Below are positions 6,167 through 49,111 of a DNA stretch of 64,000 bases, in pieces (position 1 is the first letter of the stretch; every line of letters starts with the position of its first letter). The stretch lies in the NCBI RefSeq assembly GCF_030704535.1, contig NC_081810.1, positions 8,380,501-8,444,500 on the forward strand, written 5' to 3'. The DNA is from Vitis vinifera (Eukaryota; Streptophyta; Magnoliopsida; Vitales; Vitaceae). The translations under genes were made by a program, and so were the position numbers. The notes beneath the pieces are model-generated. The model ran no database searches and had not been told where the DNA came from. It worked only from the letters and a program-made list of their open reading frames with translations.

Positions 6167-7029
6167 TTTTGTGGACCCCGCATTTCGCTCGCTCAATGCG
6201 TTTCCCACTCGATGGCGAGCTCGATTTTTATTTGAAAAATTGATTTTTATTGATTATTTGAAAATGACTTGGAGTCGCCACTTATTTTTGTTTTATTTTT
6301 AAAGGGTAAACAAAATAAGAAAGAAAAACCCTAAGTGTGACTCCTTATTTTGGAAAAGGTGATCTACGAAAAATCGGATCGGGTTCGGGGGTCAGGTTAC
6401 TTATTGGGAAGGTACGGTAAAGACCGTAGCACCCCTCTAAGTCCCTAAAGTCGGGTCTCTACTAATAAAATGAAGCCGACGTGGCAATGATGAGGAAATC
6501 AATGAATACTCAACATGATCGCACATATGGGAATTAGTACATGCATAGAGAATTACAAGAATGGGAGTGGACACGTACCTAGGTGATGAGCCGCCATGCG
6601 CTATCAAGAAATGGGGTTAGAGCATAGTTAAGAAATAATCTCATGCATGTCATAGATCAGGATAAATCAATTATGCATGGCAGTCAAATCAATCAATCAG
6701 TCAATCAATCATGAAGTCACATATGTCGGGCCCCCACCAAAGCCCGTTTATTTTTGCATGAATTAATTCCATAAATTCCATCACTCGGAATTACGGAATT
6801 TAATTCTTGCTTATTTTTAAAACATTTTAAAAAACAAAGAAAATGCAAAAGTGGCTTGCCGGAAAGAAAATGGCAACCAAATTTTACATAAAAATGGGAT
6901 TCTCGGGTGATCCTAAAAATTCTAAGGATGAAAGAGGGGAAAATTGGAATTATTTGAAAAATCAGAATTTGAGAAAGATTTTTACAAAATGAGATTTGAG
7001 AAATCATTTTCAAGATCAGATAAGAAGAA

Positions 7030-7678
7030 ATCCCAGAATATTACATGGAGCAGCTTCTTGACGGGTAGAGTTTCTCTTCACAACCTTGGGAATACGTGAC
7101 ATGAAGGAGGTGCCATCAAGAGAAAGAGCATGTCCTGCAGCCTCTTTTCGCATGAACTCTACATAGTCAGACCCCTTTGGTTGCCTTGTAGCAGCATCAG
7201 TTACTATAATCACTTTTACCACTTCCCCAGACTCATTAAAATGCCGAGAAAGACTATCCTTGGTTGCAATAAAATGAACATTGTTAACAAAGATGGTCCG
7301 AGAATCAGCACCCTCTAAAGGACGACCAGTAGGATATGAACCAGGAGCAGATAGCTACATCTTCTGAGACTCTCCCTGAGTATCTACAGCAGGTTTTGCA
7401 TTTCCATTGCCAACCGAGACAGGGTTTCCATTTGCCTTCATTAACTGCACACCAAATTTGCCAGTGCCTGTTTCATTTCCCCGCACAGGTTTCTGACCAT
7501 CCTCTTCCTCAACCTCCCTTAATCCCTGATAATGAGCTGGTTTCCATGTATTCACACTCACAGAGATATTCATGATCTTACGAGAGGTGTTTGCTAAAGC
7601 ACTAAGCTGACCCTGATCTTTACTTCGCATTGTTCGCATACCTTCATCAGCATTCTTAGCTGCACTGTGCTGCACCAT
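7030..7678 (-). pseudogene. Captured fragment of an RRM RNA-binding protein
   Basis: The minus-strand frame from 7678 reads through a Gly/Asn/Thr-rich linker to a TAG at 7357-7355, then on in the same frame into an RNA-recognition motif: RTIFVNNVHF (RNP2-like), then KVIIVTDAATRQPKG and SDYVEFM (RNP1-like). It resembles the C-terminal RRM of plant poly(A)-binding-protein-like or CCCH/RRM nuclear proteins. About 215 codons align without any intron-like break, which suggests capture of a spliced transcript. It lies inside LTR A, in LTR-sense orientation, directly abutting the GAUT fragment. No intact start, and one stop, so it is not functional. Confidence 0.65.
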
Positions 7679-7684
7679 TCATCT

Positions 7685-8330
7685 TCCCATGGAGATTCAC
7701 TGACCATGATGCAATCAAGTCTTTCTGTACAACAATATCATCATCAAGAAACAATATCTTATCTGACTTGGGATAAACCTCAGAGAGATAAAACTTCAGG
7801 TGGTTAAGCATTGAGAGATACTTGGGATTCCTGTACTTTAGATTAGAAGAGCCTGATGACAGAGTACTGGGATACCTCTGATTGAAATATGATACTTTCA
7901 CAGCAGCAGACTCGAGCTGCCTCAGAACTGGGCAGTAGGATGAATTAAGCCACTTAAATTCATCAACGTTTTCCACATGGATGGTTACTTCTCCTGGGGG
8001 TTCAACGGAAACCACATATTCATGGCTTCAAAGTTCAGCTCATCAGTAACCAGATAGAATACATGTTTTTCTGATTCCCTGGCGTTCAAGATGGTTGAGT
8101 TGACAACAACCAATGGTCCAGCGCATAGACAAGTAGTGGATTCCATTAGGAATTGTCCTGGATGCTAATTGACTCAGGAATGTGCTCTGTTTTTTTCAAG
8201 CTCCTGACTTGTTCCTCTGCTGACTGAAGCATTGCTCTCAGCTTCCTAGTGGCTTGTCTGAGGGCTTTTTGGGCTCATAATTTTGTATCTAGTACCTCAA
8301 GAAAAGTCAAGCCCTTGCACTGGCCCAGAC
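7685..8330 (-). pseudogene. Captured GAUT1-type galacturonosyltransferase fragment
   Basis: Minus-strand translation matches the N-terminal half of GAUT1-class glycosyltransferases (GT8, pectin homogalacturonan synthesis in the Golgi). It has a coiled segment ending LQSAEEQVRSLKK (near 8220), then VVVNST and HVFYLVTDELNF (8040-8115), then HVENVDEFKWLNSSYCPVLRQ, and the nucleotide-sugar-binding motif LFLDDDIVVQKDL near 7730. Several frameshifts break it, and only about 215 codons of a roughly 650-residue protein are present. Pieces that should be separated by introns in a genomic copy run together, so it is probably cDNA-derived. It sits in sense orientation within LTR A. Confidence 0.75.
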
Positions 8331-10445
8331 TGGTGAGTTCTTCAACTATATTGGCATTTTCGAAGTTTATCTTGTGACTCCTTCCATGCAAACCTTGTCA
8401 ATGGGTCAGATTCACCTCTTCCGTTAACTTCACTTGCCACATCTACATGGACTACCCTTGCGTGGCCTCTGCATGAACCCTTAGCTGAAAGATCTTATCT
8501 CCGCCACTGCCACCTTCACCCTAACTGACATTGCATCACCCACACTATGAAACGAAACCGCGAGGATGTCACCAAACTTGATGGTTTCAAGGAAATCGAG
8601 GTCCTTGAAACTGAATGGGATTGATAATGCTATTCCTTCATGCACAGCTTCGTCAAAAAGTTCAGTATGTCAGCACAAAATACCCTCTCTAAATCCTGTC
8701 ACATGTGGCCAATCAAGCTTCAGGCGCATCAAACATCTCCATGTCTTTTGTACTCCAGCTGTTACAGAAATAGTGATGAGAAAGCCACTAACAGCGCAGT
8801 GTAGATCGCCATTGACAGCACTCTACAGAATCATCTCCAAGACAAGCAGTCCCTGCAGCACCAATAATTCCTTCCTCTTCTCCTTCAAGATCGCTAGCAT
8901 GCTTTCCTCTTCTTACGCTGCGTGCCCACCATTTTTCCTTGGACAGCAGCTGCAGCTTCACGAGTCTTGTACTCATCAATAGCATCTTGAGCAAATGCAA
9001 TATCTACATCCTTCTCCCATGTTGCTTTAGCTGATGACCTGAACTATCTCTGTTAAGCTGGTCATAAGCCATGACTTTCCGTTACATTGAAGCTTTCTTT
9101 GCTTTCTCACTCCTCTTATGAAATATTCCATGCTCCTTAGCATCTTAGGTATACCCCAAGTAGTCCACAAAATTCACGACAGCTAGCTATAACGAGAATA
9201 TATATTCAAACACCCGTGACTTTGATATTTACATGGAGGTCCATAAAACGCAGCTATCCGCTTTAAAAAGAGACATCTGTCATTACCAAGTTCATACATG
9301 CACATGGAACACGGGTCAATGCCTCCCAAGCTCATATCCAGAACACCATGCATGACCATTCGAATACTACTGGATGGGGTAGCGGGTTTGAAAAGTGCAG
9401 GTTGTGATTAATGTGACGGATAATGAGAGAAATTGGTTGGGGGTAGGATGAAAGAAGGAGACGTGGGCATGATGATGGAATAAAAAGATTAAATCTGAGA
9501 TGATGATCAAATGAGGAAAGAAAGACATGGAGAATGGTAGACAAATGGGAAATGGGCAGCAGATTGGACATAATAGAGGCTTAGAAGCGAATTGAGCCCA
9601 GGTAGAAATGCATGGTGATCACGTGCGCATGGGAAATGAGGAGCGAGTTAGCCGGGTATGTGTGAATAAAGTAGAAGGTTATGAATAGTAATGGGTATGA
9701 AGAGTATGGGTGATTTTAGATATAGTGAACATGAGACGAAATGGATGTGGTGAGCATGGAGTGGACAGCTGGAAGACTGGAACAGAATCAGCCACAGTTA
9801 AAGGCGTCATAGCCTCACAGAGCACCCAGTTTTCATGACCTGACATGGCTCCAATCAGACTCTTTCCCTCAGCATCATGCGTGTGCGCATGGCCATCATA
9901 TATACACAGCCTGCTAGTTCATCAGATGTGTCGACACCAAAACAGTCAATGACATAGACAATTTGAATTTCGGTCGGCATCATCACATCCCTGCACCAAT
10001 GAGCCATGGGTTCCACTTCCTGCATGTCTACGCAACTTTAAAACATCATGATGGCGCTCCTCCTCTATGAATATTAGAACCCCAATTCGAGCCCTCACTT
10101 CAGTTTCTGCCAGTTTGTTTTCGGATGGAAAAAAACAAATTCTTGGTCTAACCTCAAATTCCCATTGCCCACTATGATCTCTTTGTAGCAAATAATGGTT
10201 CCCACAACAACGCCCAATAATGGAGACGAGACTTTTGACTTCTGGCCAGGTGAGAATGACCTTCACTCTCTTGTCCCTCTATATCTCTGCTTGCTTTTCC
10301 CAAAGATTCCTAAGAAAAAATTATCACTCTCTGGTTCTTCTTCTCCTAGACTGATTTCCCCTGCTTGCAGGTCCTCTCTTATTCCCCCAAACCAACAGAG
10401 TTTTCTGACTTGGCAACTGGATCAAAGCTAGAGGTTGACTTGGCT
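8331..10445 (-). other. Interior of LTR A, partly shared with copy B
   Basis: The stretch around 8560-9000 is related to 41450-41740 in LTR B: both have an ACCAAACTTGAT block followed by similar words. The ATG/GGTATG-rich stretch at 9300-9800 resembles 41640-42400. No host gene can be named here. These may be older captured pieces or ancestral LTR sequence. Confidence 0.45.
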
Positions 10446-12405
10446 TTATTTTTCAGATATGGCATGTTCTGCCAAGTTCTTGAAAAGGAGACCCATTAGG
10501 AGCATTTCTTGAGGATCACAATAACATAAACTTGACTTCTCAGGCGGGGTAGTCTTTTCTAATGAGAAGGCCATGTTATTGCTCTTTAAAAGGTCCTGGT
10601 TGATACTAGAAAATTTCTCTATAGAAGAGAAGTCAAATAAAGAACTTGAATCATCAGGAAGCTGGGTACTGATTTCAGAAAACAAAGATGCCTCCATGTG
10701 TTCCAACTTCAAATGTTTTGGAACAGAATCTGTCCATTGTTGATTTTGAAGGGGCTTCAGTTCATTATGCTTAGTGCTTTCAACCAACTGATGCGATTAA
10801 AACTTTGATTCCAAAAATGACCAACAGCTATATTTGTCACTCTATAGTATTTGACCAGCTTGACGCACCATAGTCATCGAGGCAAAAGAGGCAATATTCA
10901 ACTCTATTTTGGATGCCATGAACTGAAATAGCTAAACACTTGGACTACTGCAAATAGGCAAGCTCTCAACTCAAAACCAAACAGACAGGGAATTCAGCTA
11001 ACACCTTGGGAATAAATAGATATTAACCACAACCATGGGACACTTTCGAAGCTTTATTTCAGAAGACATTGGCATCATGGCATCTATCTCATTTCAGCAG
11101 CAAATCATCTACTTCTCACCAAGGATGAGAGTAAACTTGTGCATGCAGTGGTTTTCCCTTGGAGATTCAACTTCGCAATCATCAGTGGTGGAGTCAATCT
11201 CGCAAAGTAATGAAGCAACCTCAGCTTTGGCCAACAACGAAGAGGAAATGGTCATCTCTTACACAAATGCCATACCTCCAGGATGAGTCAGTGCGAGAAC
11301 TTAGGCCCATCAATCCTCTTACCATAGACTGTCAAGTTCAGCTTAGACCCGGTGTCTCCTAGTGACAGAAGGTGAGCATTTACCCTCTCATTCCACCCAG
11401 AAGAATGACTTTCCCACCAGATATACATAGAGAACTCCCCATCCAAACACCAAAATCACCAATCCTTAAAGGAATGAACTCCTGATTTGAAGAACTGAAA
11501 GCACCAACCTCCTACATTGAGTGAGATTTCTGACCTTCTGACCAGAGCTACTGACCAATCATAGGAAATTAATACCCTGCTGCGTTGATTTGATACCCAT
11601 ATGCCCCACACATCCACCCAGATTCATAGACATCTGAAAGTCTCTTTTATCCTCAAATGTTCCTCAAATTAATTCATTCTCCACCAGCACACCAGCACAG
11701 ATTTACAGTCTTAAAGCCTTGAGCATGCATTCAAGAGAAAACAGAGGAGCAAGAAACAAAAACGAGAATAGAACATGAAGCATTTAACAAATATGTTGAG
11801 CCCATTTCCTCATTTTATCCATGGAACCAACAATCAGTGGGTTAAGATGAAAAATATTTGCCAGAATAGAGCATAAAATGTAGCAAGCTCTCTAAATATT
11901 AAACCAATGCAACCCAACAAGCAGAGTGGAAATCACAGAGAATGAGTCATGAGAAATATGAAAAAAAATGAAAGTGCACAGGAAAGCCATAAAAATCATA
12001 CCTGAAAGCCTCTTCTTCAACTAGGTGTCTTGGGTTGCAACTCCCTGCTCCGTCTCCGGTAAGCGCTCAGCTCAGAATCCCTCTCTAAGATCTCTGCTCC
12101 AGACTATGGCTCCTCCCTTACCCTCCAAAAACTCTCTGAAAAATATCTCCCCCCGTCCCAACATCTCTAACGGCTTCCTCTCCCAAAAACGCTCCTCCCT
12201 GCAGCTCCTTCTGTCCCTCAACAACCTGCAGCTTTTGTAGATTCCTCCTTGCTAGGTGTCAATCTCTGATTGGCTTTCAAAAACACTGTTCTGATTCCAT
12301 GATAGCCAATCAGGGATTGACACGTGGCCTCCTAGAAATGCTCCATCTGGCCAAATAAGCTGCAACAAATTCAAAAAGAAAGTGCTCCCAAAATGGGGGT
12401 CTACA
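10446..12405 (-). other. Upstream part of LTR A, conserved with copy C
   Basis: The region 11380-12060 aligns well with 31381-32060 in copy C, for example at ATTTAACAAATATG, GGAAATTAATA and CTTTTGGGTTGCAG-like words. This is presumably the LTR's promoter and leader region. The minus-strand frame at 10787-10446 (113 codons) has no recognised domain. The end next to 12405 includes a CCACGTGTC block also present at the start of copies B and D. Confidence 0.5.
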
Positions 12406-13030
12406 AATATGCCCCTATTCGGTAGAGTTCACGAGTGCAAGGAATATGAACACTGAAGTGAATAGTAAGTGTGAATAGTGAGTGGAGTGAAGTGAACTCT
12501 GCCGAAGAATCAAAGAGACCCCCATAAGGACACTAGTGAAATACGAACTCACTCAGGCCAAGAGGCGAACACAAAGGCTCTAATCATAAAAGAGAAAGAT
12601 GGGTGCCTCAAAATGCCTCTGAAGCCACACTAAGGATCCAAGCTCCCTCTAAAACGTCTTCAAAAGTGACCCGAAGATCGATGTCAAAGGTGAGTAACGG
12701 TCGAACCACCCTGGAGTATGAACAAGAATGCGTCTAAAGGAGACTGTCCTATGTGGACTACGAGATGAATAGGCGATAAGCACAGGGTAACGAGGTGAGG
12801 AGAGTGAGAATAAGTGCAAATCCATGAAGGTGAGACATGCAATGCCAGAGAATATGAACGCTAGGAGCTGTGACTCTGCATGACAAGACTGACTCTAAAC
12901 ACTAAACTAGAAAATAAGAAAATAAAGCTTTGGAAGCCAAACCAAAAAGCTAACTCTAAACGCTAAACTAAGAAAATAACAGCTCTGGAAGCCAAACCAA
13001 AAAAAACTAACCCTAAACACTAAACTAGAA
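12406..13030 (-). other. Spacer next to LTR A with purine-run (PPT-like) edge
   Basis: On the minus strand the bases entering LTR A read GAATAGGGGCATATT, resembling a degenerate polypurine tract. If it is one, this spacer could be the 3' end of another internal region and copy A would be shared between two elements. No coding sequence is recognised. Confidence 0.35.
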
Positions 13031-13888
13031 GGCCCATAGGTGAAGACCTACGGTGGTGCCACAATAAAAATGCCCATAGATGTCAATCTATGGTGGTGAA
13101 AATCTCGAAAGCCCAAGGATGAAAATCCATGGTGGTGATAACTGAAAGCCCAAGGATGAAAATCCATGGTGGTGATAACTGAAAGCCCATAGATGAAAAT
13201 CTATGGTGGTGATAGCTGAAAGCCCAAGGATGAGAATCCATGGTGGTGATAACTGAAAGCCCATAGATGAAAATCTATGGTGGTGATAGCTGAAAGCCCA
13301 TAGATGAAAATCTATGGTGGTGATAACTGAAAGCCCAAGGATGAAAATCCATGGTGGTGATAATCTCAAACGCCTAAAGATGAAAATCCATGGTGGTGAT
13401 AATCTCAAAAGCCCAAGAATGAAAATCCATGGTGGTGATAATCTCAAAAGCCTAAGGATGAAAATCCATGGTGGTGAATCTGAAATGCCCATAGATGTCT
13501 GATCTATGGTGGTGATAATAACTGAAAAGCCTATAGATGAAAATCCATGGTGGTGAATCTGAAATGCCCATAGATGAAAATCTATGGTGGTGATAATAAC
13601 TGAAAAGCCCATAGATGAAAATCCATGGTGGTGATAACTGAAATGCCCATAGATGAAAATCTATGGTGGTGATAACTGAAACAAAGGCTCATGGATGAAA
13701 ATCCATGATGGTGAATCTGAAATGCCCATAGATGTCTGATCTATGGTGGTGAAAATCTGAAACAAATGCTCATAGATGAAAATCTATGATGGTGATAATA
13801 ACTAAAAAGACCAAGGATGAAAATCCATGGTGGTGATAACTGAAATAAATGCTCATAGATGAAAATCTATGATGGTGAAAATCTGAAA
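13031..13888. repeat. 22-unit minisatellite of GAAA-loop hairpins
   Basis: Twenty-two units of about 37-42 bp follow one another. Each has an 8-bp inverted repeat around a 4-5 base loop, usually GAAA, followed by TGGTGATAACTGAAA-type linker. Typical stem: CCATAGAT-GAAA-ATCTATGG at 13187-13206. Variants keep pairing: TCATGGAT-GAAA-ATCCATGA (13689-13708) and TCATAGAT-GAAA-ATCTATGA. The CCAAGGAT/ATCCATGG form has one mismatch. Loop variants are GAAG, GTCA and GTCTG. It lies between two head-to-head gypsy LTRs. Open frames across it (for example 13612-13088) are by-products of the repeat. Confidence 0.95.
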
Positions 13889-13968
13889 GAAGGGGGATGC
13901 CCTAAATAAGATGACAATAGGGGATGCCCTAAACAAAATGACAGTAGGGGGACGCCCTAGGTGATAAC
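13888..13968. repeat. Three short AGGGGGATGCCCT repeats
   Basis: Three partial units, each with an AGGGG-ATG-CCCT core that can fold back on itself, follow the hairpin array at about 13890, 13920 and 13950. A related AGGGGAATGCCC lies at about 14035, just before LTR D begins. Confidence 0.7.
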
Positions 13969-14046
13969 TCATAAAAATCGGCAAATGCGTCTGACAATCA
14001 TGAAATCAGCACGAGACATGGCAAACCCAAAGAGAGGGGAATGCCC

Positions 14047-15911
14047 TTGCAGCTTGCTTTTAGCCAGGTGTCACCATCTGGGGGAAGCCACGTGTCACAT
14101 TTTGACTAGCTGCTAGAGAATCACAATAGTGGAGTTGGAGGAGCAATCAGGGGTTAACACCTGTAAAGGTGATTCTGAGAAAATCTGCTGGCCGTTAGTG
14201 CAAGCTGGAGAGGATATGCAGAGGAAGGACGTTGCTGTGAAAGGGGGGCGTCTCCTGCAGGTGGTGTCGTCTGACCGTTGAGGATACTTTTAGCAGACAG
14301 CTGCAGCAAAGGAAGGGGGGGATCCCATTGACGACGGTAAGAAAAATTCTGGAGAGCTTTTTGGTGAGCTTGGGGCAGGGAGCTGCAGGAGAGAGGGGTG
14401 TGTTTCTGTTGAGGAGCAGCAAACTATGAGAGAGAGGTGTGAGGGCTTGAGAGGAGGGTCTGAGAGTTTTTTGGGGGGAGCTTCGGAGGGGTTCATTGGA
14501 GCTGCAGGAGGAGGGGGTGCTGTTCAGAAGGGTAAGCTGGTTGGTTTTGTTGACATTGGAGGAGGATTGAAGGCATCGATAGCTAAACAGAGCCTTACTG
14601 GAAAAGGGTTCTTTCAGGTATGAATGCAATTGATTTATTATTTGATCTGGATTCTTATTACTCCTCTATGATTCCTACTGATGTTTGAGTGTTTATTGAT
14701 TTGCTTGGGGTGGATAATGAAGGCCACTTATTGCTTGTTGAAACATAATCATGCCTACATGTTTACCACTGTTAATCTTAGTATGTTTTGCTCCTATTGT
14801 GAAAATGCTCATAGTTGCATTTGAGATGGTCTTTCTCACCTGATCAGAGGGCTCACTGATGACCCATGAAGTGAAGCCTTTGAAGATCCCCTTTACTCAT
14901 TTTCTTTTGTGTTCTATTTTCTATGGATTCTTCTTTGTTGTGGCCACTATTTGTTTCTATGCCTTACTCAATGCAATGGCTTTGAAAGGGTATATCCAAG
15001 TCTGGCTGCACACTCCCACAGAGATCTATTATGGTTGAAAGGAACATATTGGGTTTTGAGAGATATTTTGTAGAGGTTGTTCTGGTTGAAGAAGCAAACA
15101 AGCCGAAGAGAGACAGAGAGAACAGAGAGAGTAGGGAATGATGTTTTTGAGAAGAGGAAGTAGCTTGGAGAGAAAAAGAATACTTGAGAGAGAGTTGCAG
15201 GTATTTTTGAGAAGGTAAATGAGCAGAAAAAGAATGTTCTCCAACTGGTCTAAGAGGGGTTCTGAGAGCTCTATGAGAAGGATCTGAGAGTAAAGCTAGC
15301 TAGGGAGAGAAAGCTTGCTAGCGAAGAAGAAGAATAAGAGGAAGGTCATGCCGAAGACTTTCATGTAATCCAGATTTGATACCTGAAAGCAGATTAGAGA
15401 ATGAAGCTAAAGAAGATACTCCTTTAGAAAGAAATCAGGGTTTGGATGATGGGACAGGGGTGTTGACTTTATTGAAACTGTGGATATTTTAAGTGAACAT
15501 GCTCGTCTTAAAGCTGGAATTCTCGTGCATGGAGAATCTAGCAGCAATGTGGAGTACTATGTATGGACGGCTGGGAAGTCCTGTAGCTGATGGAAAGATT
15601 CCAACACTATATTGAAGACGATAGAGATGCCAAATGTTGTCCTGCTCCAGGCTGTGATTATGAAGTTGTTTTTTTGTTGTTAGTGGTGGAAGCTGTGATG
15701 TTTCCTGCCACGCTCATGTAACTTTTAATGGAATTGTACAGAGGGAGCTCACCTTCCTGTTGATTGCAGCACTGTAGCCAAGTGAATTCTGAAGAACAGT
15801 GCAAGTGATTGTGAAAAGCCCTCTCTGTCTTAGTCATTAAGTAAGCGTTCAACCTGACAGAAAGTGAAGTGGTGACTCCTATTCCCTAGGATCCCACTAC
15901 ATGATTTGCCA
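14047..15911 (+). other. 5' part of LTR D, unidentified
   Basis: Purine-rich leader-like sequence without a recognisable gene. A short frame near 15460-15575 (DILSEHARLKAGILVHGES) looks protein-derived, but I cannot name its family. Other small frames at 14195-14629 have no domain. Confidence 0.4.
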
Positions 15912-16015
15912 GAAAGTCTAACAGATAGCATGTTCAAGGGAATCTACAATGGCAAGCAGTGCCACGGGTTTGATATTGCAGTAGTGTTGAGCAGAGCTTG
16001 GAGTGCTGGTGTTGA
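15912..16015 (+). pseudogene. Captured TatD-type DNase fragment
   Basis: About 30 codons around MFKGIYNGKQCH and VLSRAWSAGVDGII match the N-terminal part of plant TatD-family metal-dependent deoxyribonucleases, where this segment precedes the VTGG strand. The similarity stops abruptly at about 16025, where an unrelated frame (PSVVALLPGAVVLGEFPG) follows without a gap, as in a chimera of short inserts. It is in LTR-sense orientation. Far too short for activity. Confidence 0.6.
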
Positions 16016-16984
16016 TGGAATTATTAACCAGCGGTTTTGACGTGGCACCATCTGTCGTTGCATTGCTGCCAGGTGCCGTTGTCCTAGGAGAATTTCCAGG
16101 TGTCCCTCAGACGGTGCCAGCAATGAGTTAAAACATGTTTCCTCTTGAGGCATGCGCTCTTCAAATTCCTAGACAATGGCTTCAATTCTGTCATGTGGAA
16201 ATGGACATTTCAAGCAGAAACCTGATCCATTTAGTGGTTCTGTGGCTTTCTCATCAGCAGTAACGAGCACAATGATGTCAATGGCATGGTTTCTGAGGCT
16301 AGTATCATAGGCAAACACGTCTTGTTGCCTTCCCGTTTGTGCATGGAATTTGACTTTTGAATCACCTATGGATTACAACAAGTGAGGCCCGTTGTCTTCG
16401 CTCGACGTTATCTTGATATCCGGCATCAGTGTTGACGAGTATAGGCATAATGGGTTTCCTTCGACGTTACTTCGGTTAGTTTGTCACAGCTGCACACACT
16501 TCCATGAAGAGAATCCAGGGACTTGCAAATTCAACCAAAGAGCAGTAGCGGCAGCGGCATCATCATCAGTAGCAGCATCAAGCTTCTTCGCGTCCCAAGT
16601 GTTTTCCTCTTGTCTAGGCTTTGGTGCTGCACTCACACTCCCGCAAACCAAATGCGTACTACAATGGAGCAACTTGATCCCCCAAAATACTCTCAAGTTG
16701 CAGTGCCTTATTCCTACTCTCTTGCATATGCACTTATCTTTCTTCATCATGACCGGTTACCTCGGCAAGGCTATCAGGATGGTAATAAATTCTTCTTGGT
16801 TTGCAAGGAAAGAATGGCAACTTAGCCTGAAATGCTTTGTTGCTTCTGCCCGACAACTCTCAAATGATTTCTTGAGATTATTGTGAATGTGAGATCTGCT
16901 GAAGAGTCAAATCACTACAAGCCAACCGACAGAGGTGAAAATGGAGACAATGAACATTTAGTTCCGGTAATGTCCATAAAGGAG

Positions 16985-17172
16985 GATGACGAGTGCAAGT
17001 CAATTAAGTTTGCTGTTGACTATGGCAACCTCCATAAGCAGAAGGCGTAGTCCATGGGGAAGGCAGCCAGTGATTTTATCTAAGAGGACTTGAAGATGGA
17101 CAACGTGTATGCCTACATGTTTCATCTTTTAAACGAATATGCTAAGCTGTTGAAGTTCAAGCCCACTGTGCC
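16985..17172 (+). pseudogene. Captured GT90 O-glucosyltransferase-like fragment
   Basis: The frame reads CKSIKFAVDYGN, then AASDFI, then a stop, then VYAYMFHLLNEYAKLLKFKP. This is the C-terminal signature of plant DUF821/KDEL-motif proteins of glycosyltransferase family 90 (secretory pathway). At least two in-frame stops are present (at about 17048 and 17081). Similarity ends at about 17172, where an unidentified frame follows. About 60 codons remain of a roughly 500-residue protein. Plus strand, LTR sense. Confidence 0.7.
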
Positions 17173-17589
17173 TGATGAAGCTATGGAAGGCTATCTGGAA
17201 GGAGTTGAGCCTGATGAGGAAATTTGCTATCATGTTGTCTTCCACTTTTCTGAACATGCCAAAGACCCAGGGATTAAATCTGATTGCTATGGAATCTGCC
17301 AAGGAATTAAATAGGCCATTTTATAGTAATCTCATTGGTACCTCCAGCTCAACAGGGTACTATAGATTTGCAGAGTGGGATTCGTCATGTGGAAGATGCC
17401 TGATTGGGCATACATGAAGGATCATGTAATTCTAAAGGCCCAAGAACTCCAACAGCTAGTTGAAGTCCAAGAATCCACTGGAATTCCAGTAAACATTGCC
17501 AATGGAAATAAACATTATGGAAGCAATATGCCACAGCCTGAGTTTGCTATTGTTCTTCCGTGTAATGTTGATGTTCAGACGAGCAATTG

Positions 17590-18030
17590 TTGAGGATGTG
17601 ACTGAAAATCGAAATGAAAGAGATGCAGTGTACTTAAATCTTGCTCTTGAAGGCGTCTTTGAAACTGCATACCAAGTTTCAAGACATCACAGCAGGAAGG
17701 ACTAGCATGTGCCCATTATATAAGTGTAATTGTATGCATACCAGATCTGTCATGCACTTAACTGCATGCACAGTGCTATTGGGGTCTGTCATTGTGATAT
17801 CAAGCTTCAAAATTTATGGGTCAATCTCCACACTCATCAGCTGCATATATGTGATTTTGGAAGCTCAAAGAAGGTGGCGCTAGGTGAACCAAACAAGTCA
17901 TATATTTGCTCAAGGTATCATAGAGCTCCAAAAATGATCTTTAGGGCTACAGAATATACAACTGCCAGTGATATGTGGTCTGCAGGCTGCTTTGTGGCTG
18001 AGTTTCTTCTTTCCATCCAAATGCATCCTT
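17590..18030 (+). pseudogene. Captured GSK3/shaggy-like kinase fragment
   Basis: About 145 codons in a single frame match plant GSK3/shaggy kinases, from the YLNLALE strand through the catalytic loop to the APE-containing segment. The loop HRDIKPQN of the family reads HCDIKLQN here (catalytic Asp kept, Arg lost); DFG is intact (CDFGSSK); the activation segment reads [12 protein letters not shown], with APE altered to APK. Three in-frame stops lie at about 17703-17738. The family's genes have many introns in this region, yet none is seen here, so the source was probably spliced RNA. It lies inside LTR D in sense orientation. Confidence 0.85.
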
Positions 18031-18383
18031 AGATCCTAAGACTCTTATCTTATTCCACACAGCAGTTACGTGGTTATTTCCATCATGAAACCCCTCCAGA
18101 TGGCAATCATAGGTCATCTGTAAACCTGCATAGATTTGACCCAAGAGATAAATCACGTCAGTGCCACTTGAAGCATTTGCTTAAGGGATCCGCAACCTGG
18201 GCAGGGGAGAAGTTTCTCACTCCAAAGTTGCTGGTTGTAACATCTGTAATATGCAAATCTCGGTGTAAAATACCTTGCTAGAGCATGTCTAATCCTCGTG
18301 CATGGGGTCTCGTCTTTGTAGCCGCGAGCTGGGTTTCGGTCAGCCTGCTTTATGCTCTCAATGCCTTTTAAGAGCTGTGGGAC

Positions 18384-19005
18384 TTTTGATGCAAGGAGAG
18401 GCTATTGCCCAACTAAAATCTGCTAAAGCAAGTAAGGGGGAAATCACCGCATCTGTGGCTGAACTTAACAAGGCTAAGGAGAATCTCTCAAGGCTGGAAG
18501 AGCGATCTAAGCTTAAGCCTGGTATCCCTCAAAAATATGGGAAGATTGATTATTCCCAGGATTTCTTTGCCCGTCAAGCATTTTTTACTGTTTCTGGCCA
18601 ACTGCTAGTTGAGACTTATGCATGTGCTATTGGCAGTGTTTATACATTTGGGCCAACTTTCCGAGCTGAACACTCTCACACATCAAGGCATTTGGCAGAA
18701 TTCTGGATGGTGGAGCCTGAAATAGCATTTGCAGATCTTAAGGATGATATGAATTGTGCGGAGGCCTATGTGAAATTTCTTTGCCAGTGGTTACCTGACA
18801 ATTGCATTGATGATATGGAATTCATGGCTAAAAATTTTGATAAAGGCTCCATTGATCATCTAAGAATGGTTGCATCAATGCCCTTTGAGCGAATTTCATA
18901 TGCAGAGGCAATCAAACTTCTGGAGGAAGCAATCAAGAAAGATAAGAAATTTGAGAATAAAGTGGAATGGGGGATTGATTTAGCATCTGAGCATGATCAG
19001 ATTCT
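18384..19005 (+). pseudogene. Captured asparaginyl-tRNA synthetase fragment
   Basis: About 205 codons without a stop match plant cytosolic asparaginyl-tRNA synthetase (class II, AspRS-like core). They include a lysine/glutamate-rich helical insert (AELNKAKENLSRLEERSKLKPG), then YSQDFFARQAFFTVSGQL, then VYTFGPTFRAEHSHTSRHLAEFWMVEPE, which is class II motif 2, then DDMNCAEAYVKFL. The N-terminal anticodon-binding domain and motif 3 are absent. The open frame is 18302-19030, but its first 27 codons and its tail are unrelated. Inside LTR D, sense orientation, apparently intronless. It is the longest unbroken captured frame here, but it is truncated at both ends. Confidence 0.85.
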
Positions 19006-29519: not shown

Positions 29520-29527
29520 ACCCTAAT
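29520..29527. repeat. Target-site duplication, right of hAT
   Basis: ACCCTAAT, identical to 21618-21625. Confidence 0.9.
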
Positions 29528-29534
29528 AAAGGAT

Positions 29535-30420: not shown

Positions 30421-30698
30421 ATGTGAAGAATTAAAAAAATGATGAAATGTGGTCTTCAAGTGGTGCATGGAAGGGTGGCCATGCATGGCCATGCGGAAGT
30501 GGGCTTGGGGTGAAAAGTGGCTACCTTGTTGGTGGTGAGTTGACTCGGCATCGTTCATATTAAAAAAAAATATTCCAAGGTTCCTTAAAACTCCTACCAA
30601 TATAAACCATTTTTGGTTGCTCTTTCTTGAAGTATCACTTGTAGTTGGTTGAGTACTGTGGGAAAGACATTGCTTTGTTGCATCAACACATTCTATCA

Positions 30699-31150
30699 TC
30701 AACAATGCAGATTTCGAGCAAGACTGGTTTTTCTCCAAGTGGCGGACTGTGAGTTGATAATGGTAAGCTCGAAGCATTCCCACTCAGTCAAAGAGTTGTC
30801 CATGGTGATCGAAAGGTTAGAAATTATCAGCATTAAAATCCGAAAATTCAAGTGCATTTGATCCATTTCTTGGAACTTCTTTTCCATGGAAGAGACTCCA
30901 CTTAGAAATGATATTCTGAGGTCCATTGGAGCCATTACTGTGACTTTTTGTGAAAATGGAATCAATAATGCAGTCCCTAGGGCAATGATATCCTTGGCCA
31001 CGTTACCAAACTTTGAAGCATCCTCTGAATCTACATGGCCGGCCTGGAGCTTTTCTATTTCCAGCTTCAAAACCTTTTTCATAAGCTTATGAACCTTGCG
31101 CTTAAGATCCTGAAATGAATCCTCAGGAGTTTCATCAATTGCAATAGCTT
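30699..31150 (-). pseudogene. Unidentified coding-like fragment in LTR C
   Basis: A minus-strand frame of about 150 codons (from about 31150, through 31082, to 30699) starts EDSFQDLKRKVHKLM and continues as a Lys/Leu-rich helix, then KDIIALGTALLIPFSQKV. It looks like real protein sequence and shares orientation with the LTR, like the named captured fragments. I do not recognise the family. It has no start codon context or partner domains. Confidence 0.4.
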
Positions 31151-32300
31151 CTCATTTTCTGGAGCTTGTAGAAATCACCATTCTTTCACACTTTACAGTT
31201 TCTTATTTTGGCTATTCCAAGACACAACATTATGCTTGGGCAAGCATAAGAAGGCTCTCTTTGCAAGCACCATCTCACTACATTTTTCATAAAGTTCAAC
31301 AAGAATAGACCTACCGAATAAATTAGAAAAAACCTCCAACCTTGATAGCTTTCATGTACACTCATTCTTCTCTAGCATCCTAGCATGTCACTCACCTTCC
31401 CACAAGATATACAAGTAAAGCTCCCATCTAAACACACAAGTCACCCATCCCTAAGAGGAAAGACTTCTGATTTGAAGAAACAAATGCACTAACCCTTTGC
31501 ATTCAATGAAATTTCCGACCTTTTGACAAGAGCCACTGATCATTCATAGGAAATTAATATCCTGCTGCATCGATTTAATGCCCCCATATCTCACTCACCA
31601 CCTAGATTCACAAACATTTGCAGTTGGGGTTGCCTTTTTACCCATCAAATGTTCTTCACATCAAGTCATTCCCCACCAATGCATCAACACATATTTTAAT
31701 TCATAGGGCTTAGGGTGTACATTCAGGGAAAAAAAATAGAGAAACAAAAGAATAGGAGTGGAAATAGAGCATGAAACATTTAACAAATATGCTAAACCCA
31801 TTTTGTTATTTTATCCATGGGTTTAACAATTAGTGGATTGCACTATAGGAAAGATTTTCTAGAGTAAAGCATAAAATATAGCAAACTCTTCAAATATTAA
31901 ACCAATAATCACCAAATCATAACAACACAACAAGCAAAGTTGAAATCATAGGGAATGAGACAGGACAAATATGAAATATGAAAATATATGGGAAACCTAT
32001 AATGGCCATATCTGAAAGTCTCCTTCCCGATAAGGTATTTTGGGTTGCAGCTCACTGTTCTTTCTTCTTATTTTCGCGCACTATACCTCTAGCTTTGTTT
32101 CAGCTATCTTCACACCTCATTTAGATTAAGCTCAACTCACCATCTCCCAATCTCTCCAAAACGAAGTTCCCATGGATCGTTCCTCTCTCGGTTCCGTCCA
32201 GCTCTCTTCATTTCTTCAGAGAGTTTTGGGCCAAAATGGGTTTTTTCCTAAACTTAATACTAAAAGTGGGTTTCTTCCCAAACTAATGTTCAAAATAGCC

Positions 32301-35300
32301 TCCATCAATCCACATAAGCATAAAACCCAGTTTTTTATACTATTTTTGTTTACTTTCCTAGCTTCCCATTCCATGCTATGTTCTTTATGTAATTTTTTTC
32401 TTCAAAACCTTAGCCCCACCAATGGGCCACTATGAGATAGACATTGTTAGAGTTACAAAGTATCAAGGTTGAGGTTGGTCCCAATCTTCTTTTTGGCTTG
32501 TTTTATATAAAGTTTTTTGCATTTTTTCCCCCCATCTCGGAATCTTGATTTTTAGAAGAAAAAAAAAATTCATGTTGCTTTTGGTTTTCTCTTTTGTTTA
32601 TGTCCTTTACGGCTATTTTAGCATAAATGGTTTGTTATCATCTAAATATTGAAGCCCTTTAAGATGCAGACGTTTGTTGAAGTTTTTGGGGAAAATGAAA
32701 ATTTATGGGGAAAATGAAATTTTCTAGGAAAAAATGACAATCCGTGTTTCTAATATTTGACATTTATTCTATTATATTTTTTGTCTCTTTTCTATTAGGA
32801 CTTTGGGAGAATGAATTTTATATCCTTCCTTAAAGTTGCTTTCCAACGCATCCTAACTCAAGACATACATGTGAGCTTAGTGTCTCACACAGGGCCTACA
32901 GTTGTATATTGTGATGATTAATGTCTTAAGGGCCGATTTCAACTTCGGCTTTGTTAGCTTAAGCATCACATAGGGTAACCTGCATGGAAAAACAGGGCTC
33001 GATTTTGTAGCATCTGGTTCTAGATCTGGATCTACAACGCACTTAAATGGTCCAACCTTGATTTCTCCGATGAATTAGTTCACTTTTTTTTTTCTTTTTT
33101 GGTTGGTAATAAAATGTTTTTAGGTCTCAATTGGTTTTTAGCTTGAAGGTGCTCATTACAGTGCCTGATAGCTTGAAGCTACAGTTGAGTCATCAAGTAG
33201 CAAAATAAAGGGTTTGTTTGAGGGTTTTAGGTATTTCAAGTCAATTATTAATAAATTAACACTACTTATGATATTATTTATGTCATCTACATCAAAGACT
33301 TATTATTACTTATTAAAAAATAAAAATAACTATAATTGTAATATCTTTTACTATCCTAAACTCGCTTTTGGATTTTTCAGGGGCTTAATGTTAAGTTTTT
33401 AACTTTTGTGAATTTGATAATATCATTACTAAATTTATAAAATATTTATATATTTGGATATTTAAATGAATAAATGAATATAATAATTAAAATTTTAAGG
33501 TGTAGTAGAGTCATTTTTATAAATATATCATATTTAAATACTTCACTTTTAAATAAACTTTATAAAATATACTGTTATTTATTTTTATGTTCATATTTTC
33601 AATTGCTAATTTGCTTAATATCTTGTTTTTAAAAAAATAATATTATTTAATTTTATGATAAGTCAACACAATGCATGAATAATATTTAATAATTAAAATA
33701 TTAATCATATTTATTTTGACACATTAAAATCTATATATAAACCCGATGTGATTTGATTGGTCATGTTTTTCAATATGTATTGAATCAGTTCGGCAGCTAG
33801 ACTGAGATCGCATCGAAAATTTGGAGACATGATGGGCCCTAGACACAGAGACTAAGAAAAAAAAAATGTCATTCATCACTTGCTCATTAGATCTCTTCAT
33901 GTATGGGTTTGTGAGAAACTAACCAATAAATGTTTCCTAACATTATCCCTTCTATAAGATAAAAATGGCAGATCCTTCGTAGAAGGATACGTCCATATCA
34001 CCCGAGGTTTGCTTTACCACCAACTAAAATAAATGTTTGAATGTTGGAGGAAATAGCCAAAAAAAAAGTAATAATGGGTAAATATTAGTGCTAGTAAATT
34101 TCATAAAAAAAAAAATTCTTTTCTTCCTCCCTATTTTTAAACAAACAACTTTCTAATGAGTAAGTAGACTAGAACCAAAGATGAATGATATTCCTATTAA
34201 CTATTTAGATATATACCATGTACCATTCCCAGAACCCCCACATACAGAAAATCATAGTTTTCAATATTGGGAATTTTTTCCTTCTGTTCTCAAAGAAGGA
34301 AGAAACTTTTAAGTTTATTCCATGTTATATGTATCGATGCCACTCTATAAAAACTATTGTCCAACCTACTTGTAACTTGTAACTTCTAATGTTACATCCT
34401 TCTCAATGTATGATGCATCCTATCCTATATTCACAAAATACTAGATGTTGTTCTCAATTAATCGATGTTGTTAGGGTACTCAAGCCCCATGAAAAGAACT
34501 TGAATCTTACCTAAACATTAATGTCTATATCATTGAAATTTAAACACATGTTTAAGGGTGTTTATACAGAATTTTAAATCACGGTTCCCAACTTACATTT
34601 TGTCAAAAAAATTAACATATTTAACATATGTTTATTTTAAAATTTAATTTTTAATATAAAAATATTAATTTCATTTTATCAATAAAATATTAGAAGTTAA
34701 TCTCATCCTAATTATCAAATTAGAAAAATAAACTAAACGTGTTTGTAACCCAAACACATGTAAAACATTTTATTGGACCAAAAAATAAAATAAAATAAAA
34801 TACATCAAATTACGCAATAATAGACATAGTAGTAAGCTCAACAGTTTCTCAACATCCAAACAAGAGAATTACCATTAGATAGTTTTCTAAAAATATTTTA
34901 TAAATTTTTGTATTATATATAAGTATGTTGTAATTTTATGAATAATAAGTTGAGCAAATTGTATTTCATATTTCAATTCTCGAACATAAATTTGCTCTTA
35001 AAAACAATTTTTAAGAACTATAGAATAGAGTTAGTTGACTAGTCTTTTTAGATGTGATATATGTTATTGGAACTCGGGGAACTTCCTTCGTAGCCTTTTA
35101 TTATTATTATTTTTCATGTGTTTGTACAAATCATCAATGGAGAAACCGTTAGGTAGAAGCTAGTATTTAGGGAATGGTGAAATAATTCTAATCCATTTCA
35201 AATATGCTACCACCCTAGACAAGGGTCCTAATGCCTATATTGATGTTTAGTATTATGACCAATGCTACAATTTATTGCCATTATTTAGGCCATCTAAGAC

Positions 35301-38815: not shown

Positions 38816-39773
38816 TGTGGATCTTGCATTTCTACTCATGCGTTTCCAATCGATGGCGAGCTCGTTTTTTATTTGAAAAATGATTTATTGTTTAGAAAAT
38901 GACTTGGAGTCACTACTTATTTTTGTTTTATTTTTAAAGGGAAAACAAAATAAGAAATAAAACCTTAAGTATGACTCCTTACTTGGAAAAGGTGGTATGT
39001 GAAAAATCGGATTAGGGCTCGGGGATCAGGTTACTCATTGGGAAGGTATGGTAAAGATCGTAGCACCCCTCTAAGTCCCTAAAAAGGGGTTTCTACTAAT
39101 GAGATGAAGCAATCATGACAACTAATAAGGATATCAATAGGTATCAACATGATCACACACTGAAATCCAAAGCATATATGGAGGATGGTCAAAGTGAGAG
39201 AGGATACGTACCTTGGCAGTGAACGATAATGCACTATCAAAAAATGGAGTTAGTGCACAAGAATGAGCATAAAATATGTCACACGTGTTACTAAACAGAG
39301 TGAGAAATCACCAGATATCACAATTCACTCAAATTTATTTTTAGAGAAAACATCCACTAATGTTGGGCCCCCACCATAGCCCAATTTATTTTTGCATGAA
39401 TTAATTTTGTAAATTTCATCACTTGGAATTACAAAATTGAATTTATGCTTATTTAAAACATTTTAAAAATCATGAAAATTGCATGCCAAAGAAAATGACA
39501 GCAAATATTTTATTGGGAAAATGGATTTTTGGAACCTAAGAAAAATGCTAAGGATGAAAATGGAAGAGTTGAAATTATTTTTAAAAAGAAACTAAAATTT
39601 CAAAAACTATTCGAAGAAAGGGATTTAGAAAAATTATTTTCAAAATTAAAAATAGTGAAATGAAAAATAGCACATGGGTCAAAGGTGGCCAAGCAACTGG
39701 AAGCATGCAGGAGATATGCATACATCATGCCCAACAGATCACTGATTTAGTCACTTCTAGAATAAGCTGATCA

Positions 39774-40557
<784 letters not shown>

Positions 40558-40569
40558 TCAAGCAAAATT

Positions 40570-40735
40570 CCTTGCTCCCCAAAGATGTAATTTTTTGTGT
40601 GTCTTTTTGTCGTAAACCACACGAGCCTCCACAACCTTACCATATTTACTGAAAACCTGCTCCAGACGAACACTGTCGACACCCTATGGCAAGTTACCAA
40701 CGTACATTCTAAAACCAGGTTCAAACATGCGAGAA
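40570..40735 (-). pseudogene. Captured chloroplast-type RRM protein fragment
   Basis: About 50 codons: EPGFRMYVGNLP (RNP2), a stop, then SVRLEQVFSKYGKVVEARVVYDKKT. This is the start of the second RNA-recognition motif of plant chloroplast ribonucleoproteins (cp29/cp31 type). Similarity ends at about 40590. It directly adjoins the long G-run at 40742-40768. LTR-sense orientation. Confidence 0.7.
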
Positions 40736-40741
40736 GGGAGA

Positions 40742-40768
40742 GGGGGGGGGGGGGGGGGGGGGGGGGGG
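40742..40768 (+). repeat. 27-base G homopolymer
   Basis: An unbroken run of 27 G inside LTR B, next to the RRM fragment. Its exact length is likely to vary or be mis-assembled. Confidence 0.9.
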
Positions 40769-41409
40769 TTTGGCAATGATCTTCGTGGAGCAGCCTTGTT
40801 TACAATAGATGCAACTGGAACCAAAGATGGAAGTTTCCCATCTTTCCTTGCACTCTTTACCTCTTCCTTGGTATACCAGACTTCGCATCCGTATCGATGT
40901 CCAAAGTCTCCAAAACTTGCTATTTATTTTGCAACTCGCAGTGGGCCATTTAAGTTTCATAAGATAATTAAGCTACTCCATTACTTCGTGAATTACTGCA
41001 CAATCTGATTCATCCATCTTGTCAACTAATTCTTCTTTTCCTTCACATGCCGATCACCGTTTGGCTCATGTATTCAATCACAGTTGTATTTCAAACATCG
41101 CAAGACACCAACGTATAAAGCCATTCCACGATGTCGTCTCTTTGGTCTTGGAATTCTACTAAGCAGTTATGTCCTTGATTCACTAGATTTTGTGATTTTT
41201 TTTAGACCACTCATTGTCACGTTTTCTTTCTTGGATGGTTGTGCAGCGACGACGGGTAGAGCAAGTGTGGAATCGGACCTGACCATATGCGTGGAACTTG
41301 GAGAGCGTGTTCGAATGGATAAGGGAGTGAGACGATGGATGAAGGCATAGGTATGTCAATCTCTGAGTAAGTTATGGGGCTTCGTTTCCTACTACACAAA
41401 CAATTGAAA

Positions 41410-41430
41410 CCCCCCCCCCCCCCCCCCCCC
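41410..41430 (+). repeat. 21-base C homopolymer
   Basis: An unbroken run of 21 C inside LTR B, at the edge of the segment shared with LTR A. Confidence 0.9.
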
Positions 41431-43974
41431 ACAGCATGAGATCAACCAACGAGGATGCCACCAAACTTGATAATTTCAATGAATCGGACGTCTTCAAAAT
41501 TGAGTGAGATTGATAACGCTAGTTCGTCATGTACAACTTTGTCAAAAGCTTTCAGTATATCAGCACAAAATAGTCTCTCTAAATCCAAGCACGCTTCATA
41601 CGTGACCAATCAAGCTCTAGGCGCGCAAAACATCTCCATGTCTTTCAAGAAGGCCATGCATGCGTCAAAATGGTCATGCATGTGGGTCATGTGCATAGGG
41701 GAGAGAATAAGAAAGATATTTATGGTGAGTGAATGGTAGAATAGGTAAAGGAGGTAGTGAGAGAAAAATGGATTCGGTGGTGTTAAAAAATGATGATATG
41801 CATGGAGCATGAAGAATGGGTATAGAGATGGGTGTGAGGATATTTGGATTTGATAGAGAATGGAGGCTTTGGTGGGTGGTTATGCAAGGCTTTGGATCGT
41901 TATTGAGGGAACGAAAGATGAAGGGTAGTGAGATTGATGGGTTTAGTGGGTTTAGGAAGATGAGAAAAGAGGTGAGAGAGGTGAGTAGTGAGAGAAAATG
42001 AGGAGTAATGGGCATGAAAGATGGAAATGTGGCAATGAGGGGAAATGGGTATGGTGGTATGGGGATTAGTGGACATTGAAGGATAGCCATAGGTGCATGC
42101 ATGATAGGAATGAATAGGAGAGGTGGTGAAATGAAGGTGGACATGCGCGTAGGATTAGTATTAAGCATAACCATAGGTAGTGAGAGAAAATTAGGTTCGG
42201 TGGTGTTGTTCATGGATTGCATGGATGATGGGGGTGTAATGTGAGAAATGGGTTAATGAGGTGGTTAGAGAAGATGAAGATATGGGTGGTGAGCATGAAA
42301 GACGATGGGTACAGTAGGCATGAGGTGTGAGAATGGAGAAAATGGATATGAGAGGAATATAAGCTAGCCATGCACGCATGAGGGGTGAACCCATCAATAT
42401 AATTTGTGATCTTATCAATATCAAGAGCATTTAGCTTGTCAAAAGAAGCCAAAACTTGCACTGCACTGAGAGTATGCACTATATGTGGATCATGTTTGAT
42501 GTTACCCCCAAACCCACCAGATTCATGTTAACACTCCATGACCCATGAAACAACTTCATCTTAATCCACTATTTCTAGCTTTCCAAGAAGATCTAGAGTA
42601 GTCAATCCCCAGTATGCTCTATTCATTTTTAAATGCTCTGTCACCACTAATTCAAAATCATCCTTCCTCTTTTTAACTTATAAAATGTATCGAACGTGTT
42701 TCTCAGCTTCCAGCTCTTCTATTTTTGTCAGTCCCTTCTTTTGGAGCTCATATTCTTTTTGGCAACTTTTGAAATTCTTCTTCCTTTTTTCCATCTTAAC
42801 CTCCCTTTGGGACCATTTCCATGCCAACTGTCTCTTACCTTCAGCACATACTCATTCACTGAGAGATTAAAGACTTTACCACCAACACTAAAAGAAGCAT
42901 TAGGCATGGAAGAAAGCTACAAACAGTCCACGACTGATCCTCCTATTGGGCTTGGCAGTCAATCACAAAGCTCATTCACATACTCCAACATACATCATCG
43001 TGTTTGATTTCGCCAAAGTTGATTTGGCATCCAAACAACTGCCATTTCACCAGCATAACATCCAACATCATGTACACTAGATAACTTGTCATTGTTCTCC
43101 TCATCCACAACACTCTCAATGATCATGCTGACACCAAGAGTCTCATCAAAGGTACACAACTCAATTTGCGAGTAGATCTTCTATGGTGATGTCTTTGATT
43201 AAAAGTAAATCAATGATCGTTTGCCCATACTGTGCAACTTCAGCCTTGCATTCAAGCACTATATTCTGGAAGCACTGGGACTACCCTTCATGCTAAGTAA
43301 TGGTGCCAACAAAATCAACCCTAAGCTTGGAAGACACTCTCAACAACTAGACTTCTTTCACAACTGAATCTATTGAATTGTTTCAACACTAATGATCATC
43401 ATCTTATTTACCTGAGCTCTCTTAGAAACATTCTGATCAAGATGGCCAACCCAAACATGATGCCCAACTTTCCAAAAAATATCAGAACAGAGGAGAGGGT
43501 GAAGAAAAATAGAGCATGTATAAAATGAAGAAAAAAACTGTCAAGTCTAACTTCATTTTATGAAGATCAAGGAATTGAACATAGGTGGGATCAAAAGGGA
43601 GTGAGAACATGATTTTAATACACTAAGTTCAGGGAAGAAACGAAGCATTAGATATTTTCAAGAGAAGTAAAAAACACCCAAAATAAATCTAAAAACAGAG
43701 CATGCATACTCAAAGTCCCACAAAACAAACAAGTGGCCTATAATATCTACTCCAATCAATAAACCAAATACTCAAAAGAAATATTAAAAGTGAAAGTTAA
43801 TCAAGGTGAAAATGAGAAATCAAGAGCTCACCGATAATCATACCTGGAATGCTTCTTTCAAGCCAAGAGTGGATTAGCTTCCAACTATGCTTTTGTTCCT
43901 CTTATCCTTCTTTATTTTATTTTTTTCTCTCACTGTTCTCCCTTTCTCCTCTCAGCTCAGGCTTTTTTTCTTTC

Positions 43975-44750
43975 CCTTCCTCCTATAACCAACTCACTTT
44001 CAGAGAAAAAAATTTTCCCTCTCGTTTTCCTAAAGTCACCACTCCCAAATATCTCTCTACAACCTAATGAAAAATCTCTATGTCACAACCTGCAACTCTT
44101 TCAGTCTTTCTCTCTCTGTAAAACTTTTTCTCCAAGAAAAACCTTGCAATCCCCTCCATGTTTTGCCTCCCAAAAAAATATCTCACCCTTAGCAACAAAA
44201 TACGCTTCCCCTTCTCCTCCTCCTGTAACCAGCTCATTCTCAAAGAAAAAAATTCCTCTCTCCTCTTCCTCAAGTCACCACTCCCAAATATCTCTCTGCA
44301 ACCTAATGAAAAATCTCTATGTCACAACCTGCAACTCTCTCAATCTCGCCCTCTTTGTAAAACTTTCTCTCCAAAAAAAATCTTGCTATCCCCTCTGTGT
44401 TTTGCCCCCCAAAAAAATATCTCACCCTTAGCAATAGAATACACTCCCCCCTCTTCCTCCTCCTGTAACCATCTCACTCTCAGGAAAAAAAATCTCCCCC
44501 TCCTTTTCCTCAAGTCACCACTACCAAATATCTCTCTACAACCTAATGAAAATCTCTATGTCACAACCTGCAACTTTCTCAGTCTCGCCCTCTCTGTAAA
44601 ACTTTCTCTCTAAGAAAAACCTCGCAATCCCCTCTGTGTCTTGCCCCCCAAGAAAATCTCCCCCCCCCCCCCCCCCCCCCCTCCCCTCCAAAAAAAAAAA
44701 ATATATCTCACCCTCAACAACAGAATACGCTCCCCCCAGCTTGCTCCAAC
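43975..44750 (-). repeat. Three 240-bp tandem repeats at the start of LTR B
   Basis: The block GTCACCACT-CCAAATATCTCTCT occurs at 44034, 44273 and 44514 (spacing 239 and 241), within C/T-rich units that begin near CTCCTGTAACCA. They lie just inside the LTR's 5' end, where enhancer-like repeats often sit in LTR elements. The last unit contains a run of 22 C (44660-44681). Confidence 0.85.
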
Positions 44751-44934
44751 ACCTATAACTTTTCTCATAATATTCCTTGACCTGCGTCAACCTCCCATTG
44801 TCTATCTTAACCACTATTGTGATTCCTTGATGGATAACCATAAGGCGACACGTGGCTTCCTGAGAGCTTTCCACCTAGTAAGAACAAGCTGCATAAAAGT
44901 GAGAAAAAATTAGCCCCCAAAATAGGGGTTTACA

Positions 44935-49100: not shown

Positions 49101-49109
49101 TTTTTTTTC

Positions 49110-49111
<2 letters not shown>

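Follow-up and report, generated by a model that had tools for sequence, protein, structure and literature searches.

A 64-kb window of the Vitis vinifera genome (the whole stretch analysed, NC_081810.1 positions 8,380,501 to 8,444,500, with no N) contains one repeat in four copies, labelled A to D in order of position: A, B and D, each of about 6.2 kb, and a diverged fourth, C. A, B and D are long terminal repeats (LTRs) of a Ty3/gypsy retrotransposon, as seen in TG...CA ends, a primer-binding-site (PBS)-like sequence, a polypurine tract (PPT), a gag gene and a 5-bp target-site duplication (TSD). Between their conserved edges, the three copies hold different pieces of host genes in LTR-sense orientation, a pattern that probably reflects repeated uptake of host mRNA into the LTR.

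LTR copies and element class

LTR A (6170..12405, minus strand, 6236 bp) is the 5' LTR of a leftward-running element. Its TG...CA ends carry a short inverted repeat (TGTAGACCCC/GGGGTCCACA), as do those of D (TGTAAACCCC/AAGATCCACA), and the start of LTR B is shortened (TGCCC). On the same strand, 3 nt past LTR A, lies the PBS-like sequence (6149..6166, TGGCGACTCCACTGGGGA), whose reverse complement ends in CCA like a tRNA, presumably tRNA-Arg, followed by a gag open reading frame (ORF; 3071..4102, minus strand, 343 aa) that matches Retrotrans_gag (PF03732, E 5.9e-13). In 1-3070, the three minus frames gave no Pfam match at E 0.05, so the element of LTR A may be non-autonomous or may have its pol beyond the window. 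LTR B (14042..20382, plus strand, 6341 bp) is a 3' LTR, directly preceded by the PPT (AAAGAGAGGGGAA, 14029-14041). This tract closes the internal 3' part of the element ending in LTR B (12406..14041, plus strand), which we infer to be the region downstream of pol and which includes, just before the LTR, a tandem array (13072-13889) with a 37- or 111-bp unit in 21 or 7 copies, respectively. The PBS evidence from A and the PPT evidence from B come from different elements, and the partner flanks of both LTRs lie outside the window; from the abutting boundaries, element A appears to have inserted into the internal region of element B.

LTR D (38816..44934, minus strand, 6119 bp) is a solo LTR, with ATGAT duplicated at both flanks, the sole complete flank pair in the window, and neither PBS nor PPT in the 15-bp flanks. 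The original prediction had named DNA-transposon ends, such as 9-bp duplications, as evidence that would overturn the LTR reading; none was found, the single complete flank pair having a 5-bp duplication. Two DNA-transposon classes were considered and rejected: Pack-MULEs are characterised by a 9-11 bp duplication and long terminal inverted repeats, whereas D has a 5-bp TSD and imperfect inverted ends of about 10 bp, and Helitrons have TC...CTRR ends without duplication, whereas the ends here are TG...CA with a TSD at D. The fourth copy, LTR C (20865..32415, minus strand, the upper bound of about 32.4 kb and hence the 5' limit being approximate), is diverged and interrupted by a hAT element, with transposase pieces at 22588-24492 (hAT-like RNase H and dimerisation domains, and a BED finger below cut-off); a TSD was looked for at this copy and not found.

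The element is probably a member of the Ogre/Tat group. Elements of this group carry tandem repeats in the 3' internal part, and the window element resembles them both in this and in its very long LTRs. The comparison made here covers the LTRs of 6.1-6.3 kb and the PBS-like sequence, with a presumed tRNA match; pol, to which the clade markers (a second RNase H domain, aRH, and the RT phylogeny) belong, is not in the window. For Ogre, large LTRs and a PBS matching tRNA-Arg have been described (PMC9289625). A second PBS-like motif (TGGCGACTCCA) is found inside the LTR itself, 101-113 bp before the 3' end, exact in A and B and in altered form in C and D, as though the LTR had absorbed an older LTR end and PBS. 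A comparison of the LTR motif with viral contigs, a search that may omit the window's own genome, gave 0 matches.

Fixed ends and different middles, as claimed by the original prediction for the copies of about 6.1-6.3 kb, were recovered on alignment. The 5' ends of A, B and D align over 162-207 bp at 65-68% identity, and the 3' ends over 770 bp at 81% plus 166 bp at 67% (A/B), 897 bp at 73% (A/D) and 915 bp at 71% (B/D), with breakpoints ~170-240 bp past the start and ~870-940 bp short of the end, and with interiors that are otherwise largely unrelated. Copy C shares with A its 3' end (808 aligned columns at 67%, corresponding to the last 763 bp of A) and a segment near the 5' end (11408..12050, minus strand; 678 columns at 72%) that was not found in B or D, and the tandem repeats of C weakly match the 3' parts of A, B and D. 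One interior cassette is common to A (8539..8748, minus strand) and D (41428..41645, minus strand), at 76% over 218 bp and 159 bits, as compared to a best score of 31 bits for the interior of A against 20 shuffles of the interior of D; further interior matches are weak (A/B, 46 bp and 37 bits; B/D, 261 bp at 60% and 44 bits). The A/D match stops in D at a 21-nt G run (41410-41430), one of only three G/C homopolymer runs of at least 8 nt in the 64 kb, all of which are in LTR D. The others, at 40742-40768 (27 nt) and 44660-44681 (22 nt), lie apparently inside an RRM piece (as judged by eye) and near a tandem-repeat array, respectively. Non-templated tailing by reverse transcriptase was considered as a possible cause of these three runs, of which one stands at a demonstrated breakpoint.

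Host-gene cargo and its orientation

Cargo was sought with Pfam in A, B (from 13890 on) and D, in 18 frames altogether, with stops read as X and the curated cut-off applied. All eight pieces above this cut-off are in LTR-sense orientation and none falls in the nine antisense frames, which for random strand choice has a probability of 0.5^8 = 0.004; the sense orientation claimed by the original prediction is thereby upheld. The LTR sense was fixed from the PBS, gag and PPT, independently of the cargo, and the opposite-strand reading, in which the LTR sense would be the reverse of that of the cargo, was rejected because all three run the cargo's way. The count leaves aside weak Pfam matches of single ORFs that fall short of the curated cut-off, as well as a sense match to aspartyl protease in D (E 0.026); neither the PK_Tyr_Ser-Thr match, which overlaps the kinase piece, nor WHEP, which is part of the AsnRS piece, was counted again.

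LTR A carries two of these pieces in LTR sense on the minus strand: an RRM piece (7094..7294; PF00076, E 2.3e-13 and 1.6e-11) and a GAUT (GT8) piece (7659..8110, the upper bound being approximate), which contains frameshifts, crosses an intron site and matches PF01501 at 7662-7994 (E 6.4e-24), with no match for this piece in the PDB. On the plus strand of LTR B follow a GT90 piece (16955..17188; PF05686, E 6.1e-25), a GSK3-type kinase piece (17688..18029; PF00069, E 1.1e-24 and 1.1e-23), whose best PDB chain is 8qcw (a serine/threonine kinase, 2.9e-41), with GSK3 entries next at about 1e-31, and an AsnRS piece (18392..19027) spanning WHEP and the catalytic core, with matches in both Pfam (class-II tRNA synthetase) and the PDB. 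Upstream of these, a TatD-like piece (15897..16007, plus strand) is weak, with no Pfam match and E 0.0069 to PDB 3e2v, a 3'-5'-exonuclease that we take to be TatD. LTR D holds, on the minus strand, a ketol-acid reductoisomerase (KARI) piece (40186..40536; PF01450, KARI_C, E 2e-9; PDB 1qmg, E 8.8e-43), an RRM piece in the same frame as the KARI match and 19 residues ahead of it (40594..40704; PF00076, E 1.1e-6), and a prenyltransferase piece (42393..42713; PF00432, E 3.4e-18), presumably Rab geranylgeranyltransferase beta-like, which was absent from the list of the original prediction. The cargo named in that list was otherwise recovered, namely GAUT and RRM in A, GT90, GSK3 and AsnRS together in one further copy and KARI and RRM in the other, with TatD at the weak level given above (E 0.007). 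The copies are labelled differently in the two cases: the KARI copy, B in the original prediction, is D here, and the copy with the TatD, GT90, GSK3 and AsnRS chain, D in the original prediction, is B here. For LTR C, Pfam found nothing in the parts scanned, which were 29000-33200 (three sense frames) and 20865-22500 (one frame).

Intron sites and relatives of the cassettes

The original prediction held that the pieces run on without introns. This was examined for two genes, AsnRS and GAUT, from the translated sequences of their protein and ORF relatives, and at the sites of both genes the comparison indicates that the intron is absent. For AsnRS, the protein search returned at least 7996 matches (7999 candidates scored), and IAFADLK or a close form occurs in 55 of the 120 relatives listed. 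Directly after this motif, these 55 continue with V (33), D (20) or N (1), or end (1); V after ADLK (GTN) would mark the start of a splice donor, with the GT read through, whereas LTR B crosses the same site (18731-18760) as an unbroken GCAGATCTTAAG-GATGATATG, i.e., ADLK-DDMN. For GAUT, 95 of the 98 candidates matched, and LTR A crosses the site reading VVVNSTILNARESEKHVFYLVTD, where the text is VVVNSTVLHAKEPEKHVFHIVTD in P0171 (named Musa) and similar in P0215. At this site P0130, P0131, P0151, P0165, P0200 and P0204 carry unrelated text ending in Q before (E/D)P.KH, resembling the 3' end of an intron; P0130 and P0204 are alike in this preceding text, and P0198 has just MNAK there.

The same searches identified relatives of the cassettes with shared joins and varied neighbours. 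P0001 (Vitis vinifera, 97%) has both its 5' and its 3' joins as in LTR B, and the AsnRS 3' join (...LASEH/DQILA...) is common to P0001, P0002 (Vitis vinifera, 96%; a gene model, compared at the protein level), P0003 and P0013. Despite this one 3' junction, the 5' sides of the four are of three kinds, as those of P0002 and P0003 run on into AsnRS, while in P0013 a helicase piece (Helicase_C, Pfam) stands there instead. Among the GAUT relatives, P0121 (97%), P0122 (92%, 23 members), P0124 (82%) and P0125 (92%) start at the frameshift of the window piece, and three of the four (P0121, P0122 and P0124) stop at the same GAUT join; given this common start and common end, a single GAUT capture was probably multiplied. 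The 76-aa F6GUH1_VITVI (P0161) matches LTR A in two parts, its first 7 residues at 8812-8792 and its last 69 at 7865-7659. The relatives of the cassettes presumably lie in LTRs as well.

Routes of cargo uptake and known systems

An RNA route of cargo uptake is well supported, and the account that we consider probable is that the LTR of an Ogre/Tat-like element repeatedly took up host mRNA via template switching. During minus-strand synthesis, the reverse transcriptase, moving along the element RNA from the 3' end towards the 5' end, would leave the LTR template for a co-packaged host mRNA or part-spliced pre-mRNA, copy a piece of it, switch again and return to the element template. An edge of about 0.2 kb on the 5' side and one of 0.9 kb on the 3' side persist, and the ~5 kb between them consists of host cDNA pieces in a chain. 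As the altered stretch is part of the LTR, the normal strand transfers would place the altered LTR at both ends of the new insertion, and later rounds would multiply it. The varied 5' neighbours above a kept 3' join are as expected of 3'-to-5' copying, and the sense bias, loss of introns, lack of poly(A) and changed 5' neighbours fit template switching. Of the LTR-internal capture put forward in the original prediction, the LTR identity, the site of the cargo, its orientation, the intron absence in two genes and the changed neighbours are borne out by the analysis, while the switching step, the moment at which it happens and the spread of the change to both LTRs are proposed from this pattern.

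Several observations weigh against so simple a course. P0073 is intron-free at the AsnRS site and extends further 3' to a different 3' end; P0003 seems to retain an upstream intron edge, its opening text matching that of the host-type ORF P0025, and lacks the next intron; and P0029 keeps the ADLK intron with its upstream exons joined. These sequences point to several capture events, perhaps not all from fully spliced mRNA; part-spliced pre-mRNA may have served as template in some cases, or capture may have been repeated. Furthermore, P0199 and P0209 have other text at the GAUT site, the GAUT part that precedes the intron site gave on its own no Pfam match (6 reads) and no PDB match (1), and the KARI protein search returned 2 candidates and no match. 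The intron-tested set comprises two genes of the cargo, and eight pieces are a small sample.

Other routes fit less well than template switching. Processed pseudogenes made by long interspersed nuclear elements (LINEs) might have landed serially in old LTRs and then been copied on; intron-free pieces are also a typical product of LINE retroposition, and L1 has been suggested as a possible cause of the processed-pseudogene excess in grape (Mascagni et al., PMC7935947). We regard this as unlikely, since all eight pieces are sense, they are internal coding pieces that lack poly(A) (no run of 8 or more A in the sense strand of LTR A or B, and one 8-mer in D), and the RRM and KARI pieces of D stand in one frame 19 residues apart. 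Shuffling of gene pieces or retrocopies into the LTRs at the DNA level, by double-strand break repair with filler DNA, gene conversion or unequal recombination, would account for the mosaic neighbours around common pieces, and solo-LTR D shows that recombination was active here; yet the absence of introns at the two sites examined, the lack of antisense pieces and the A/B/D breakpoints at the distances from the LTR ends given above make it quite improbable. Nested Pack-MULE, Pack-CACTA or Helitron captures inside the LTRs are very improbable despite being the usual plant carriers of gene fragments and despite the MULE transposase pieces nearby (35740-37668), since the whole units end in TG...CA with a 5-bp TSD at D and since such captures, as is generally known, copy genomic DNA, introns included, in either orientation. 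The MULE pieces themselves (DBD_Tnp_Mut and MULE domains) lie between LTRs C and D and are apparently unrelated to the cargo.

LTR elements are already known to capture genes; in the window, the host pieces lie inside the LTR itself. A 2026 review lists transduction, abnormal template switching (Veju, BARE-2) and transduplication as routes of gene capture in plants (PMC13317346), and the LTR-internal host cDNA chains described here are reported neither in its accessible parts nor in the literature searched, which consisted mostly of titles and abstract openings. In BARE-2 and Veju, abnormal template switching likewise altered the LTR or element, with another retrotransposon or unknown DNA as the donor according to the available portion of that review, whereas in the window the donors are several host genes. 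Bs1 of maize, too, is an LTR element that combines pieces from several host genes; these form a new chimeric gene, as far as the same portion describes them, whereas the window pieces lie inside the LTR and vary by copy. We take the Bs1 gene pieces, which differ from those of the window in this respect as well, to be internal to the element. Host genes have also been multiplied by LTR elements in rice and sorghum, where a figure legend has the captured genes drawn apart from the 5' and 3' LTR boxes and the accessible text mentions no LTR-internal chains (PMC3726574). For Ogre, the available part of PMC9289625 describes no host cDNA chains within the LTR, in contrast to the window. Pack-MULEs and Helitrons share the principle of fixed ends around interchangeable gene-fragment cargo and differ, as is generally known, in acting at the DNA level and in their ends and duplications.

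Cargo captured inside the LTR would be present twice, stand beside promoter and terminator signals and be free to diversify. More tentatively, the LTR might act as a self-renewing cDNA cassette, whose conserved ends serve as vector arms and whose cargo is lengthened or replaced by host mRNA, chiefly at the 5' side, and copied to both LTRs. If so, cassette LTRs could yield chimeric sense transcripts and explain part of the excess of processed pseudogenes in grape. Unprocessed and processed pseudogenes stand at about 2:1 in Vitis vinifera and at about 10:1 in four other plants (PMC7935947), and the authors, who draw a tentative link to L1, also name LTR elements as a mediator of retroposition. 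LTR cargo capture is a testable source for this excess, and some grape gene models may be LTR cargo, namely F6GUH1 and perhaps VitviT2T_008424 and VitviT2T_018531.

Two features lie outside the LTR finding. At 48171-49250 the window contains a direct repeat of ~515 bp at 95% identity together with an inverted repeat near 49106-49247, and the minus strand of 58465-60105 holds a 546-aa ORF that, to our eye, presumably resembles a pentatricopeptide-repeat protein.

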